From Marivita lacus (GTDB taxonomy: Bacteria; Pseudomonadota; Alphaproteobacteria; Rhodobacterales; Rhodobacteraceae), in the NCBI RefSeq assembly GCF_014637725.1, contig NZ_BMFC01000005.1, forward strand, positions 124,001-188,000: a DNA stretch of 64,000 nucleotides. Reading direction: 5' to 3'. Position 1 is the first letter of the stretch. Each line of letters opens with the position of its first letter. The notes under the pieces were generated by a model. The model did no database searches and was not told the origin of the DNA. It worked only from the letters and a program-made list of their open reading frames with translations. Both the position numbers and the translations under genes were made by a program. Shown here in pieces: positions 33,230 through 39,258 of this stretch.

Positions 33230-35302
33230 TCAGACACCAACGAACACTGGCTCATCGCGGCTCGTGATGTTTTTGCCACAAACCGGCGGTACGCGGTACG
33301 GCCCGGTCCGGGCGAGGGTCTGTGCATCGGGCGGCGCGTCGGTGTCAGGATACAGCGTGTCGAACCCATGTCGGGCGGGATTGCCCGCGACAAAGTTCAA
33401 CGCGATCAGCCGTGTGGCAGTGGCCGCAGCCGCGCTTGTGCCGATGATCCGCGCGCCCGATCCGGAAAGCACCCCGATCGAGGGAAGGCCGGGACGGAAC
33501 CAGCCCTGATCCGCAGTGGCCGTGGTTGCGGGCAGGTTGGCATCTACAAACGCTGTGCCGTCCGCATCCACACCAATCGACGCGCTGCCGCTGTAGACCG
33601 AGGGGTTCAGCGTCGACTGCATGTACCCGGCGACCCGGAACACCGAAGGCGCGGTGCCGATGCCGTTCAAACACCCATAGCCACGCACGGGTGTCAGCGC
33701 GGTTGGTGCGAATGGCCTTGGCGGCTTCGGATGCGCCAGATCGACAAGGTGGCTTTGCTGGCCGCCGGTCCCAAGCTGTATCGGATCGTCGTCGCGCTGG
33801 ACCCAAACGTCAATATACTCACCCGCGCAAAGCGGATCGCTTCCGGTGTCAACTCGGATCGTCCACAAACCAACCGGTGTCCGGCGACCTTGACCAAGAT
33901 TGCCGGCCGTTGGGATCATCGCCAGCATGACGCGCCAGCGGTTCCCCAGATGCTTGTCGGCGGACAGCTGGCCGATGTTCTTGCCGCCGGTCTCCAGTTC
34001 GACAAAGCGGCGCGGGTCGCCATCCTTCAGCAAGGGATCCGACTTGACCGGGATGCTCCGGCCCAGGTCTGGCGGGCTTCCGACAGGGGGTGTCACGGTC
34101 ACCGTCCAACCGTTCGGTTCACGGCCCGGCGGGAGCCAGACCTCGAGATAGCTCGACGTGCCATCGTCGGGTTTGAGCTGCCAGCCGAAACTGACCGCGC
34201 CATCCTTCAGGTCGACCGTCGAGAACCGGGCGTGCATGTCATTGGCGAAATTGTTGCCCGTCGGCATCACCAGTTCGGTGCAGGGCTGCACCCTGCGCCG
34301 ATCCGAGATCAACGCCTCGACGGCACGTTCAAAGCTGGATTGCCCGTCATGGCGATTGGCGCTCCAGCCATAGCTGAAGTTGATCACCAGCGGCAGTTCG
34401 GGGCTGTCAAAGGCCTCGGCGATCATGCGGGCGCGGTTGAAGATGTATTCAATCGCGCTGAGCATCATCATTTCCTTGCCAAAGCCCGACGTGTCCCAGG
34501 CGATGGTGTTGGGCAATTGCACGGCGATGATTGCCGCGTCGTCGGGCAGGTCGGACGCACCCACGAAAGGGTCGTTCCCGGCGGCGATCCCTGCGATATG
34601 TGCGCCGTGGGTGACGTGGTGCCTGAGCACGGCACCCACCTCGGGCAGATCGGGGTCGATGGCGTGGGCGGCCTGATAGACGCGCAGTTCATGTTCACCG
34701 TATTGTGCGCGCAGCTGGTCGGTGCGGCCGCCTGTGATTTCGCACCCGAAGGGAACGGCGGCGGACATGTCGGCACGCGCGGCCTGCAACCAACACAGGC
34801 TGATGCGGCTGTCGCCGGTGGCACCGCGAAAGGCGCGGTGCAGAAACGGAATGCCGTCATCGATCACACCGATGATCACGCGCGGTTTCACCTTGGGGCG
34901 GTGCCAGCCTTCGGGTGTTGCATATCGGTCATAGGTGGCAGGCCAGGTGACCGGATCAATCGGCATGTTGAGCCGGTACCGGCTGCCTTTGAGCGCATGC
35001 AGGCACCGGGCAAGGTCGGCGTCTTCGCTTTTGGGATCGGCCTCGGGGGTCACCGACTTGTTCCGCATCACAAAGGGCGTGACCTCGGGATTGTCCTTCC
35101 AGAGCGGCGGCACACGGACCTCCACGTCCTCGGTGCTTGCAGGCATGCCCTTGCCTTCCATCAGCGCGGTCACATGCGTCGAGGGGCCTTTTCGGATGGC
35201 GGGAAAGGCAAAGGGGCGACCGAGGTTTTCGGAGAACACCCAGCGTTCGTAGGGCCCGGTGTATTTGTCGATCCGTTCATCGTCATGACGGTGGGGAAAC
35301 AT
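33230..35302 (-). CDS. S8 family (subtilisin-like) serine protease
   Basis: 690 residues. The catalytic triad is complete: Asp148 in GVIDDGIP, His232 in THGAHIAGIAAG and Ser623 in IIGTSAAAATA. The oxyanion-side asparagine is in VMPTGNNFAND. About 270 residues without known motif lie between Asn and Ser. There is no signal peptide, so either it acts in the cytoplasm or leaves by an unusual route; the first 140 residues may be a prodomain or docking part. It starts three bases after the haloperoxidase-type gene ends, and is the last gene of the 38.1-33.2 kb operon. Confidence 0.92.
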   Translation of the reverse strand: MFPHRHDDERIDKYTGPYERWVFSENLGRPFAFPAIRKGPSTHVTALMEGKGMPASTEDVEVRVPPLWKDNPEVTPFVMRNKSVTPEADPKSEDADLARCLHALKGSRYRLNMPIDPVTWPATYDRYATPEGWHRPKVKPRVIIGVIDDGIPFLHRAFRGATGDSRISLCWLQAARADMSAAVPFGCEITGGRTDQLRAQYGEHELRVYQAAHAIDPDLPEVGAVLRHHVTHGAHIAGIAAGNDPFVGASDLPDDAAIIAVQLPNTIAWDTSGFGKEMMMLSAIEYIFNRARMIAEAFDSPELPLVINFSYGWSANRHDGQSSFERAVEALISDRRRVQPCTELVMPTGNNFANDMHARFSTVDLKDGAVSFGWQLKPDDGTSSYLEVWLPPGREPNGWTVTVTPPVGSPPDLGRSIPVKSDPLLKDGDPRRFVELETGGKNIGQLSADKHLGNRWRVMLAMIPTAGNLGQGRRTPVGLWTIRVDTGSDPLCAGEYIDVWVQRDDDPIQLGTGGQQSHLVDLAHPKPPRPFAPTALTPVRGYGCLNGIGTAPSVFRVAGYMQSTLNPSVYSGSASIGVDADGTAFVDANLPATTATADQGWFRPGLPSIGVLSGSGARIIGTSAAAATATRLIALNFVAGNPARHGFDTLYPDTDAPPDAQTLARTGPYRVPPVCGKNITSRDEPVFVGV

Positions 35303-35305
35303 CGC

Positions 35306-36421
35306 TCAGGCCTTTTGCGTTTCGGCCACGGCACCGGACCAGAGCCACGAGAACGCAGGCTTGGCGTCGAGCGTCACCATATTGCCGGTGATCGTCAATC
35401 CCTTCGACGGGGCGATGGCCGGATCGCGTTGGTCTTCGTCGAAGAAGTCGTGGTCACCCGGCGCATAGGCCAGCGCACCCACGCATGCCCCTGCACCTGA
35501 GCGGGCCAGCACGACCTGACCGACGATCCGGCCCAGTGCAGCGCCTGCCCAGCTGTCGATTGGATAGTGCACACCTGCCACGGTTCGGTTGACCGTGATG
35601 CGTTCCGCCAGCCCGCGCAACGCCTTCTTGCGCTGTTCCATGTGGCCAAGGCTGTCCCACGCGGTCATCAGCGCTTCGAGCACCGTCAGAACGGCGTAGG
35701 CCTCGGTTGCGTGGGCGGATGGGAAACTGCCATGTCCCGGCGTCGGAATCATCGGCATCAGCCGAGGGTCAAGTTGATCGGGGCGACGGATGGCAAGATG
35801 CTGTTTGACGATCATCGCGGTGTGCGCTGCGGCAACCTGCGTTGCAGTGATCAGCTCGAACGTCTTTTTGTTCTGGGCACTGTGCAGGCCAAGGATCATC
35901 GCGAAATAGGGCGTCGGAAAGCCCAGTTGTGACGTGATCTCGGCGCTGCGTTCCGCGCGCAAGGTGGCGTAGTCGGAGACGAACCTGCATTGGGACTGCA
36001 AGAGGGCGAGGGCAGGGCGATCCATCGTCAGGCAGGTACCGCCGTCGAAAGACAGCGCGACACGGTCGGGCGCACCGCCGGTGCCGACCATCGCGTCCGA
36101 GCCGATGCCAGCGAGGAATTCGCTGACATAGAGCGATCCGCGCACCCAGGTGGCCAGACCGCCGAGATTGGCGGGATCGGAAAAGCCAAGCTCCTTGTCG
36201 GTCGGTGTCGTGCCTTCCTCGGTCAGGTGCCGCAGACCTTCTGCCGTGGTTTGCAGACCGTAGGTTGTCACGGGGTCATAGCCGCCGGGATCCTCTACCC
36301 CAAGAAACCCGCCAAGCCCGGTGAAGTTGGTGCTGCCAAGGCCTCCCAGTCCACCTAGACCACCCAAGCCGCCGAGTCCGCCCAGCCCCCCAAGGCCACC
36401 CAAACCACCGTACTGAGACAT
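35306..36421 (-). CDS. PAP2 / vanadium-dependent haloperoxidase-type protein with (GGL)8 N-terminus
   Basis: 371 residues. After MSQY come eight Gly-Gly-Leu triplets (5-28) and another Gly-rich stretch to about 47. The C-terminal half has the three phosphatase/haloperoxidase motifs: K206-x6-R213-P214, PSAH at 234-237, and R279-x5-H285-x3-D289. These bind phosphate or vanadate. Length and soluble character favour a haloperoxidase-like enzyme over the membrane-bound lipid phosphatases, but the sequence does not prove halide chemistry. The eight triplets use different synonymous codons. Sits between the regulator (24 bases upstream) and the protease (3 bases downstream). Confidence 0.87.
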   Translation of the reverse strand: MSQYGGLGGLGGLGGLGGLGGLGGLGGLGSTNFTGLGGFLGVEDPGGYDPVTTYGLQTTAEGLRHLTEEGTTPTDKELGFSDPANLGGLATWVRGSLYVSEFLAGIGSDAMVGTGGAPDRVALSFDGGTCLTMDRPALALLQSQCRFVSDYATLRAERSAEITSQLGFPTPYFAMILGLHSAQNKKTFELITATQVAAAHTAMIVKQHLAIRRPDQLDPRLMPMIPTPGHGSFPSAHATEAYAVLTVLEALMTAWDSLGHMEQRKKALRGLAERITVNRTVAGVHYPIDSWAGAALGRIVGQVVLARSGAGACVGALAYAPGDHDFFDEDQRDPAIAPSKGLTITGNMVTLDAKPAFSWLWSGAVAETQKA

Positions 36422-36445
36422 GTGTTCAATTCCTTATGCAATGCT

Positions 36446-38086
36446 TCATGAAATACCTGCGGCTGACAGTGCATCAACCATCAGTTTGCCGATTTTGCGA
36501 TCAGCGGAAGGATGTGTTTTCCGGTAATCTTCAAGGCTGAAATAGGGAAAGCGCCGCAACAGGTCTTGCGCCGCGATCCGGGCCTCGTCGCCACGGTCCA
36601 AAGCGTGCAAGGCCGCGATCCGTGTGCGCAACGTGGAAATATGCCGGTCATTCGCGGCAAAGGACTTGTCTGCAAGCTCGAGCGCCTTTTCATACTCGCC
36701 ACCGGCCAGATGCGCCGAGCTTGCCAGGCTGTCGAAATAATAGCCGAAGGGGTCGATGGGCGAGAGGTCACGCGCCATCGTCGTGGCCCTGATGGCCGAT
36801 TGACCCTCGTCCGAAAACGCCATCAGCGATCCCCGCAGCAGCCACGCCAGGCTTTCGCTGGGGTTGATCTCTTGCGCGGCGGAATAGCGTTGTTCGGCGA
36901 TGTCCATGTTCTTGAGGATGTTGCCGTTCACGAACCCGTCGATGGTCAACCCGAAGCTGGAGTGTGGATCAAGATCAAGCGCCCGCGCTGTACAATCCAG
37001 CGCCCTTTGCGTGTCTTTCTGCCGGTCCGTGCTGTAATATTTGAAGATGCTGAGCACGTACCATTTGCCCAGCCATGCAAAGACATGCGCGTTGTTGGGG
37101 GCACGCGCGGCGGCCTCGTCTAGAAACTGACGGGCGCGCAGGAAATCCCCGAGTTTCGGCAGGTGCATCGCCGTGGCACCCGCAATGAGCAGTTGGTGAT
37201 CGGGCAATTCCGGCAGGGGCGTCTGGCGTCCGGCATGCAGGGTCGTTTCGGCAATCGACCGCCCGACCGACTGCACGACATTGATCAGCCATGCGCTGGC
37301 CTCGTCGGCGAACTGCGTGAAAGGGCAGGACAGGTGCCGGTTCCACAGCAATGTGCCGCTGCGCACATCGGTGAAATCCAGATCCGCGATCAGCGTATCG
37401 CCTTGCCGTCGCATCGACCCGGTCAGCAGGTAGTCCACATCCAGCGTGTCGCGCACGTTCACGATGTCGATGAACCGCTGCGACATGGCGCGTCCCGAAA
37501 GGTGCGAGATCACCGAGAGCAGGCTCGAGCGCGACATCATGCGGCTGGTCTCTTCGGCGATCCAGTCGCCCGCGATGGCCAGATCGGTGTCCCCCGGCGG
37601 CACGGTCAGGGGCAGCGCGCAGACGCGCGGCCTGATCCGGGTCGGACCTCGGTTGTTCGACATGAAGCACAGCGCCTTGACTGCGCTGGGATCAGCCCGG
37701 ATGCTGTCGCGCCATGCCAAGAACGATGGTTCTCGCACGTTGAGATCGTCCAGGAACGGACCGTCGGATGGGTGCCCGATCACCTTGACCCGGCCCATGT
37801 CGATCTCGATTTCCTTGTTGGTGACGGTCAGGATTTTGTCGAAATCAACGCCCAGGATCTTGCGCAGGTCAGACAATGCGCGGCGCAGGTTCTGGTGACC
37901 GCTTTCGTAATCGGCAAATCCCCAAAGCGTTTCCTGCAGAAATCCGCGGGAGCGGCGATTCAGAGGTGCCGTGACAAGCAACGCGAACAAGCCCCGGTGC
38001 TTTGCGCCGGTGATTTCCATTGCTGGCGTCTCTGCACGTCGCAGCACGCAAGACCCGAACAAGGAAATTTCAAGCCCTGCGGCCAC
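36446..38086 (-). CDS. transcriptional regulator with TolB-like and TPR domains
   Basis: 546 residues. The N-terminus (about 1-105) looks like an OmpR/SARP-type winged helix (LFGSCVLRR...KHRGLFALLV...LRRALSDLRKILG). Residues about 150-255 resemble the TolB-like domain seen in CadC/adenylate-cyclase-type regulators (DVDYLLTGSMRRQGDTLIAD, RSGTLLWNRHL). From about 300 to 540 several TPR units follow. No receiver domain and no membrane segment. GTG 38086 with GGGGG upstream. It heads the operon with the haloperoxidase-type enzyme and the subtilase, which it probably controls. Confidence 0.8.
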   Translation of the reverse strand: MAAGLEISLFGSCVLRRAETPAMEITGAKHRGLFALLVTAPLNRRSRGFLQETLWGFADYESGHQNLRRALSDLRKILGVDFDKILTVTNKEIEIDMGRVKVIGHPSDGPFLDDLNVREPSFLAWRDSIRADPSAVKALCFMSNNRGPTRIRPRVCALPLTVPPGDTDLAIAGDWIAEETSRMMSRSSLLSVISHLSGRAMSQRFIDIVNVRDTLDVDYLLTGSMRRQGDTLIADLDFTDVRSGTLLWNRHLSCPFTQFADEASAWLINVVQSVGRSIAETTLHAGRQTPLPELPDHQLLIAGATAMHLPKLGDFLRARQFLDEAAARAPNNAHVFAWLGKWYVLSIFKYYSTDRQKDTQRALDCTARALDLDPHSSFGLTIDGFVNGNILKNMDIAEQRYSAAQEINPSESLAWLLRGSLMAFSDEGQSAIRATTMARDLSPIDPFGYYFDSLASSAHLAGGEYEKALELADKSFAANDRHISTLRTRIAALHALDRGDEARIAAQDLLRRFPYFSLEDYRKTHPSADRKIGKLMVDALSAAGIS

Positions 38087-38434: not shown

Positions 38435-38458
38435 AAAACCGGCCATTTGGCCGGTTTT
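38435..38458. terminator. two-way intrinsic terminator
   Basis: AAAACCGGCC (38435-38444) and GGCCGGTTTT (38449-38458) form a perfect 10-base stem with loop ATTT. Flanking A and T tracts serve both strands, between the convergent small acidic gene and the ABC solute-binding gene. Confidence 0.92.
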
Positions 38459-38481: not shown

Positions 38482-39258
38482 TTACAGGCCCCATTTTGCA
38501 GCGGTTGTCTCGAAGAAACCCTGCGCTTCTTTCAGTTCGATCCAGCTGTTGACGTAGTTGATCCAGACCTGGTCGTCCTGCGGCAGCAGCATCGCGATCG
38601 GCGACGGCGCACGCGGGCCATCTGTTTCGATCTGGCGCAGGTTCGGGAATTTCGACAGCAGGGTCGCGCCTTCGATGTTCGAGGTCACGAACACGTCAGA
38701 CCGGCCGGACAGCACTTCCTGAAAACCACGCGCCGGGGCTTCGACGACGGTGATTTCCGAATCAGGGAACCATTCGCGCACCATGCCTTCAAAGCTGGTG
38801 CCGAGTGTCGTTGCGACCTTGACGTCAGCGGCATTGATCGAGTCCCAACCCGAGAAACGATCGACCTTGTCCTCGGTGGTGAACGGGAAAATCTCGACCG
38901 CGATATAGCTGTCCGAGAACCCTGCCGCCTTCATCCGCGCGGGACTGATCGATGCAGAGCCCGTCATGTGGTAATTCCCGGCCACGACGCCGTTCACGAG
39001 GGTCTTCCAGTCGGTCGGTACGAATTCGAGCTCGACACCGAGATCGGCAGCCAGTTCGGTCATGACGTCGATGTCATAGCCGACAAAGGTGTTGGTCGCG
39101 GGGTCACGAACGGTCATCGGGTTCCAGTCGCCGGTTGTCCCGACCTTGAGAACGCCGCCACTCAGGATGTCCTGAAGCGCGGATTGGGCCGACGCGGGCG
39201 CGCCGAGGACAGACACGGCAACCGCCGCCGCAAGTCCGAGTGATTTCAGAAAACGCAT
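38482..39258 (-). CDS. polar amino-acid ABC transporter solute-binding protein
   Basis: 258 residues. A Sec signal peptide ends near APASAQS; the rest is a family 3 periplasmic binding protein (GVLKVGTTGDWNPMTVRD, FVGYDIDVMTELAADLGVEL, WKTLVNGVVAGNYHMTG). ATG 39258 with AAGGAAATACC is favoured; 15 earlier codons are open but would precede the signal. It is divergent from the matching ATPase and permease genes. Ligand is likely a polar or aromatic amino acid; not decided by sequence. Confidence 0.92.
   Translation of the reverse strand: MRFLKSLGLAAAVAVSVLGAPASAQSALQDILSGGVLKVGTTGDWNPMTVRDPATNTFVGYDIDVMTELAADLGVELEFVPTDWKTLVNGVVAGNYHMTGSASISPARMKAAGFSDSYIAVEIFPFTTEDKVDRFSGWDSINAADVKVATTLGTSFEGMVREWFPDSEITVVEAPARGFQEVLSGRSDVFVTSNIEGATLLSKFPNLRQIETDGPRAPSPIAMLLPQDDQVWINYVNSWIELKEAQGFFETTAAKWGL

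Follow-up and report, generated by a model that had tools for sequence, protein, structure and literature searches.

A conserved three-gene module in which a PAP2-superfamily enzyme carries a tandem peptide array that varies with the neighbouring peptidase

Introduction

What might eight identical copies of the tripeptide Gly-Gly-Leu be doing at the N-terminus of a PAP2-superfamily enzyme whose gene adjoins that of a subtilase? The question is raised by a locus of Marivita lacus (Rhodobacteraceae) in a stretch of 64,000 nucleotides of contig NZ_BMFC01000005.1, which we call the window and to which all coordinates below refer. Three genes stand there on the minus strand, separated by gaps of 24 and 3 bases as an earlier sequence-only reading had described them: a regulator of 546 residues with a GTG start, here called REG (36446..38086), the PAP2 enzyme of 371 residues with its N-terminal array (35306..36421), and an S8 subtilase of 690 residues with CspB-like architecture (33230..35302). 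That reading had supposed a functional unit, with the tagged enzyme as a target of the protease. Our goal was to see how far this can be carried by comparing the locus with its relatives. We find that the trio is a conserved module, and that the array is kept identical within a gene, changes between lineages, and has a unit length that goes with the type of the adjoining peptidase.

Results

Conservation of the trio was judged from 264 PAP2 rows, which gave 182 distinct cores once identical core ends had been removed. A short flank excluded 17 of these, leaving 165 interior rows with at least 2.5 kb on each side, among which one locus, L057 (the letters L and G mark our own numbers for loci and genomes), enters twice as two pieces of one broken gene. 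Flanks, retrieved for 80 of the family hits, were annotated with hidden Markov models (HMMs) made in this analysis. Module members supplied the sequences for the PAP2 HMM, which may therefore favour them; neighbours and arrays played no part in the search. REG lies within 5.5 kb of PAP2 in 161 of the 165 interior rows. Among these 161, a recognised peptidase of one of six classes is present in 157 and a perfect tandem array in 154; none of the four PAP2 rows that lack REG has an array. Where REG and array occur together, the order REG, PAP2, peptidase on one strand is seen in 97 of 154 rows. The regulator or the peptidase is inverted in 54 and one of them is moved in 1, always within 5.5 kb, and 2 rows are incomplete. 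In the first 60 loci (duplicates included, drawn from genomes, species contigs and plasmids by a PAP2-only query) REG and S8 adjoin in 58 by single-sequence search, and the remaining two, L019 and L020 (the latter via its longer flank L077), also have S8 by HMM. The trio is a conserved module: homologues of its PAP2 are not scattered and the linkage survives inversion, which bears out the earlier view of the three genes as a unit.

PAP2 matches were found in 24 of 61 relatives at E-values up to 10−3. At E-values up to 10−15 they were found in 24 of 398 phylum genomes and 13 of 385 class genomes (sets that partly share genomes), and in 82 of the 248 sampled genera of the window's family. The closest named relatives are Marivita records, 81-88% identical to the window PAP2 over the best segment. 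Modules occur on plasmids too, and in one Parasedimentitalea plasmid copy (L057:5965-9056) PAP2 and S8 are both broken into pieces. One scan of viral_contigs gave 40 viral loci, 39 of them matched by the PAP2 HMM, and REG, peptidase and array were seen in none; apart from these, one phage record has a distant PAP2. Viral carriage of the module was dropped as an idea, given 0 of 39 viral-contig PAP2 genes with module parts.

The array of the window, (GGL)x8, occupies PAP2 residues 5-28 (36338..36409, minus strand) and is predicted to be disordered, with a pLDDT of 27-28. The (GGL)n tag singled out by the sequence-only reading finds no support as such: GGL is one of 87 units. These units, with rotations merged, come from 167 arrays and are 2-5 residues long, with a period of three in 124 arrays, two in 22, four in 20 and five in 1, and with 4 to 20 copies. 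Examples are GGF, GGV, NSF, GNQ, TGW, NAE, AGR, SR, NK, GQ, NGGM and GGGAG. Glycine makes up 40% of unit residues, cysteine is in no unit and proline in two. By net charge 67 of the distinct units are neutral, 10 positive and 10 negative, and some units are hydrophobic. Two general explanations are weakened by this variety: a homotypic condensate tail, given units that span hydrophobic to like-charged, and a collagen-like helix, given glycine-free units and periods of 2, 4 and 5. Arrays can be unlike within one genome (GGGA x11 and TGW x9 in G017, GNA x11 and GGA x13 in G020) and copy number can differ by strain: six Phaeobacter-type loci have between 5 and 7 NSF units. One locus, L210:5663-12944, has two PAP2 genes with unlike arrays, GS x20 and SAY x10, together with two S8 genes. 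Arrays of at least 15 residues were found in 7 of 1232 other open reading frames (loci not de-duplicated), and in six of these cases the coordinates place the array opposite that of a PAP2 gene or in a duplicate of such a locus. A perfect array is missing from seven REG-bearing interior rows: L057 (twice, broken), L153, L208, L218, L232 (with REG split) and L262. The PAP2 tails of L208 and L218, which are modules with S8, consist of degenerate repeats, NTRSG-like and AAF-like.

The identity of units within an array is maintained at the protein level. Each of the eight units in the window is spelled differently in DNA, and over 1629 units we count 1116 distinct spellings, compared with 1108 expected from random draws on each gene's own codons. 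Differences between units are synonymous in 2239 cases and non-synonymous in 81. Per site this gives 0.60 for synonymous and 0.008 for amino-acid differences, the latter being an underestimate, since only perfect runs counted as arrays, which leaves the synonymous figure unaffected. Given random synonymous spelling and identical protein units, selection therefore acts on the protein and not on likeness of the DNA, and homogenisation of units at the DNA level is ruled out. Between lineages, array units turn over fast: the same unit is shared by 40 of 47 pairs of loci at over 90% core identity, and by 9 of 35 pairs at 80-90%. In sister arrays the third bases of GG codons match at 0.34 for 43 same-unit pairs and 0.31 for 37 different-unit pairs, compared with 0.31 for unrelated arrays, and core sites of those sister pairs match at 0.52 and 0.46. 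Sister arrays were aligned from the start only, and unit gain or loss may explain the low third-base match.

The peptidase slot is filled by unrelated types. By class, 132 arrays adjoin a CspB-like S8, 15 a second type of subtilase, here S8b, 6 a papain-like C1, 5 a glutamic peptidase of the Peptidase_A4 type, 4 a family that we call HEFGH and 1 an M24 (L152). An early idea that arrays are absent where S8 is absent was dropped once S8-less loci turned out to have other peptidases together with arrays. Unit length goes with these classes. Period three is found in 113 of 132 S8 arrays (four in 14, two in 4, five in 1), period two in 14 of 15 S8b and all 4 HEFGH arrays, period four in all 6 C1 arrays, and period three in all 5 A4 arrays and the one M24 array. 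The mutual information between unit length and class is 0.50, with a maximum of 0.17 in 5000 shuffles. Parsimony on the PAP2 tree requires 109 changes of unit and 12 of length; when each unit was given a random length, at least 24 length changes were needed in 1000 runs, with a mean of 36.6. Within C1 there are four unit changes and zero length changes, and within S8b five and one.

We also regressed distance matrices for 130 of the 132 S8 arrays (S8 of at least 480 residues, REG present) and for a thinned set of 76 loci, in which the two rows of L210 were dropped and only the TPR part of REG was used. Period follows S8 in the full set (0.36). In the thinned set S8 predicts both composition (0.156, p 0.002) and period (0.376, p 0.002). 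The TPR part of REG is not significant there (p 0.18 for composition, p 0.77 for period), and PAP2 gives p 0.076 and p 0.98. The peptidase is thus the best-supported partner of the array, with other candidates remaining. For the earlier proposal of PAP2 as a target of the protease, the association of unit length with class and of thinned length and composition with S8 is indirect support.

Both enzymes of the window have complete catalytic motifs, as the sequence-only reading had said. The window S8 matches Pfam Peptidase_S8 (PF00082) at 1.6e-7, over the curated cut-off, and shows the Asp/His/Ser triad and the oxyanion Asn within a subtilase fold. Among 28 aligned proteins His232 (codon 34607..34609, minus strand as for the other codons), Asn350 (34253..34255) and Ser623 (33434..33436) are invariant; Asp148 (34859..34861) is kept in 27, with Glu in L051, and the next residue, Asp149, in all 28. 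We take Asn350 to be the oxyanion residue by analogy to subtilisin Asn155. An AlphaFold2 model of the S8 protein (mean pLDDT 81.6) is nearest to Clostridium perfringens CspB, 4i0w (Z 26.8, rmsd 3.3, 410 residues). It appears to contain the jellyroll insert of Csp proteins, with alignments to 4i0w, 9pr9 and 9pr8 over 410, 435 and 474 residues, and has strands at 369-502, between His232 and Ser623. A pro-domain-like fold is predicted at about residues 40-115, ahead of the catalytic domain.

Catalytic motifs are also kept in the S8b, A4 and C1 sets, as they are in S8, with roles that we assume from known members of these families. The C1 class, in which Cys, His and Asn motifs are conserved, rests on a four-member HMM. 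Three of its members were compared with Pfam: two fall just under the Peptidase_C1 cut-off (0.0016 and 0.0021) and one has a weak C39_2 match (0.013). The C1 copy of L201 is cut short at a transposase. Peptidase_A4-type genes stand directly downstream of PAP2 in L138, L139, L149, L150 and L151, recognised by Pfam in L139 and L150 and by homology in the others. The HEFGH family, about 900 residues long and convergent to PAP2 (L145:7241-10192, L202:2828-5563, L209:2068-5019, L224:6207-8873), is named after its invariant motif. It had no credible match in Pfam (L145, L209, L224), NCBIfam (two members) or PDB (four-member profile), and from the motif it may be a metallopeptidase. Four arrays adjoin none of the six classes (L137, L187, L216 and L258): the neighbour in L137 has no Pfam match, L187 has a divergent S8 (Pfam 5.9e-7), and L216 and L258 lie near contig or locus ends. 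In L242:3985-6765, PAP2 and S8b are fused into one protein of 926 residues with a (TH)x6 array.

The window PAP2 matches PF01569 at 4.2e-8, over the curated cut-off, and has the K...RP, PSxH and R-x5-H-x3-D motifs of the superfamily. Neither 18 divergent members nor 32 closer ones show any change in the K, R, PSxH, R, H and D columns. The AlphaFold2 model has the PAP2 fold (mean pLDDT 71.0), with the array disordered, and is nearest to the class A acid phosphatase PhoN (Z 16.0, rmsd 3.0, 195 residues), compared with Z 12.1, rmsd 4.3 and 202 residues for the best haloperoxidase, which has the same superfamily fold. By these scores the modelled fold is nearer to class A acid phosphatases than to haloperoxidases. 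The comparison does not favour the reading as a haloperoxidase, and that earlier label finds no support.

REG had been described as a TolB/TPR regulator. Its C-terminal TPR part is confirmed by TPR models in Pfam (TPR_14 at 1.1e-5, over its cut-off). TolB_N has no Pfam match in the window protein; a weak likeness is seen only in a related REG in L137, with FlgO at 6e-4 and TolB_N at 0.0097, both under cut-off. The N-terminus would be a winged helix of SARP type, a class given by similarity, with one relative so annotated, and the middle appears to be TolB_N/FlgO-like; both are assigned from similarity to relatives and from known motifs. NCBIfam gives HilA/EilA at 6.4e-7, far under that model's cut-off. 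By HMMs of this analysis, the output domain is a winged helix in 136 of the 165 interior rows, a cyclase in 28 and unclassified in 1, so that the body is constant and the output domain interchangeable. A guanylate-cyclase domain replaces the winged helix in L056, L059, L062 and L150. In the window, a terminator-like hairpin of 10 pairs (38435-38458) separates REG from a gene that ends at 38482 and resembles the solute-binding protein of a transporter.

Discussion

The trio may be read as a three-part switch, which would probably be cytoplasmic. By inspection of the N-termini, no signal peptide is apparent on either enzyme. REG would control or sense through an interchangeable output domain on a TolB/TPR-type body, and the PAP2 enzyme would be the effector. 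The peptidase would recognise the N-terminal array of PAP2 and most likely cleave it, and the putative cut would turn PAP2 from latent to active or free it from a partner. We regard the case for this switch as evenly balanced. Cutting is likelier than binding alone, since the catalytic motifs are kept in four of the peptidase sets. The array would be matched to the adjoining peptidase, whose type would set the unit length and whose lineage would set the residues. If it is so matched, the units would therefore stay identical while the whole unit drifts with the peptidase. A further idea, put forward tentatively and a shade more doubtful than credible, treats the array as a peptide address that drifts freely. 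Its sequence would be arbitrary, with error-free repetition needed since the peptidase reads many units. Peptidases of several catalytic types would have become dedicated readers independently, each with its own unit length (2, 3 or 4), address and reader changing together, to give a lock-and-key code over a cytoplasmic phosphatase.

Several of our results weigh against the proposed switch. The peptidase classes mostly coincide with PAP2 clades, with only 7 class changes on the PAP2 tree by parsimony, so the evidence linking length to class comes from few independent origins, and our shuffles and permutations ignore ancestry. In the 130 loci composition follows REG (0.27) somewhat more than S8 (0.18), with PAP2 at 0.02; exact unit identity again has REG (0.16) over S8 (0.11) and PAP2 (0.08); and hydropathy in these unthinned data goes with REG (0.37) and PAP2 (0.22) and not with S8 (-0.05). 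Even in the thinned set, a five-part model with REG in three parts gives the PAP2 core p 0.02 beside S8 p 0.016 for composition, and the TolB-like part of REG p 0.01 beside S8 p 0.002 for period. No covarying columns stood out by pair comparison (means of 0.24 for S8, 0.23 for PAP2 and 0.22 for REG). Triplets of the own unit before the catalytic Asp of S8 numbered 0 in 42 segments compared with 0.5 expected, and therefore no autoprocessing site matching the array is seen there. Five of the 157 peptidase-bearing rows have no perfect array, two of them being pieces of one broken gene, and two of the 161 REG-bearing rows have an array and none of the six classes. A candidate signal, the enrichment of own-unit triplets inside S8 (87 compared with 63.5, p 0.005), was set aside: both of its highest peaks fall on GFG stretches that one clade conserves, and we read it as ancestry.

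The array could also be bound and not cut. As a multivalent docking tail it would hold PAP2 and the peptidase (or REG) in a complex, or keep the peptidase inhibited. Identical units favour avidity, the array does associate with the peptidase, and CspB is reported to be kept inhibited by its bound pro-domain (PMC3567191). We consider a docking tail unlikely, as docking alone would not need the conserved catalytic motifs of the S8, S8b, A4 and C1 sets. A further alternative, about as unlikely in our view, makes the array a multi-copy precursor of a peptide of 2-5 residues, freed by the peptidase and sensed by REG through its TPR body. The three genes that this would need do adjoin, the copies are many and identical, unit length tracks the peptidase class, and composition and hydropathy track REG before thinning. 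After thinning the TPR signal of REG is not significant, however, dipeptides such as GQ, NR and SR would make poor specific signals, and it is left unexplained why the carrier should be a PAP2 enzyme whose catalytic residues are conserved.

Fast turnover of the units is also what an arms race or self-recognition might produce, if a toxic PAP2 were unleashed by the peptidase in abortive infection or kin discrimination. The sharing of units by so few pairs at 80-90% core identity and the plasmid-borne modules agree with this, and proenzyme-protease pairs do work in defence (PMC12799240). The defence role suggested earlier gained nothing from PADLOC, which had no match among the three proteins, and no phage-sensing domain was seen. 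Chemical signalling, raised in the same reading, found no support either. PADLOC matches among 87 neighbour proteins were spread over 17 defence families: 3 members matched mad3, 2 a single PycC model, and the 15 other families had 1 member each, counts that stand without a background rate. We think such a system improbable. A view of the arrays as minisatellites that escape selection within a disordered tail is hardly credible. Disorder in the model and strain-variable copy number would suit it, but spelling is random synonymously while the amino acids are almost unchanged, arrays occur in 154 of 161 module rows compared with 0 of 43 control PAP2 genes, and length tracks the peptidase class.

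If the switch holds, it would offer a direct route to how proteases gain and change sequence specificity, as well as orthogonal protease-tag pairs ready for use and a form of enzyme control that is new. Given the share of family genera with a PAP2 match, the module seems to be widespread and to provide dozens of peptidases naturally matched to their targets. The protein families are known, HEFGH excepted; the arrangement, and above all the behaviour of the array, we regard as new in kind. We know of no parallel for units identical within a gene and different between lineages, with a length tied to the type of peptidase. A literature search, with subscription papers and preprints mostly outside its reach, gave no paper on this three-gene set.

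Parts of the module do resemble known systems. The catalytic motifs and fold of PAP2 are shared with PhoN, PhoC and vanadium haloperoxidases; unlike the module enzyme, none of the 43 control PAP2 proteins examined has an N-terminal array or a linked pair of REG and peptidase. Signalling of the RRNPP type relies on TPR receptors for short peptides, and there too a TPR regulator, a peptide source and a protease come together, whereas our thinned data link no TPR part of REG to the unit. The closest structural likeness is to CspB and pro-SleC of Clostridia: the S8 fold, jellyroll insert and pro-domain are alike, and CspB is the nearest of the solved structures listed. The likeness may reach to function, as activation of the cortex hydrolase and efficient cleavage of SleC both depend on CspB, a protease serving the activation of a hydrolase (PMC3567191). 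The Clostridial system differs in belonging to another phylum and to spore germination, with a cortex hydrolase as substrate and no TolB/TPR regulator; in our module the partners are PAP2 and REG, and neither a cortex-hydrolase linkage nor a germination role was found. We know of no tandem array in the CspB/pro-SleC system.

Exchange of the protease has its own precedents. Bacterial gasdermin-protease operons keep one effector family, a pore former not known to carry a tandem array, and fill the protease slot from unrelated families. Our module is alike in its slot and unlike in its effector, which is a PAP2 protein by Pfam and neither a gasdermin nor a nuclease, in keeping with the PADLOC result. 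In Hachiman, AVAST and canu, protease-activated pro-nucleases of defence adjoin their own proteases, whose families are exchanged (PMC12799240). There the nuclease is gated by active-site insertions, whereas here a PAP2 enzyme carries a lineage-specific array.

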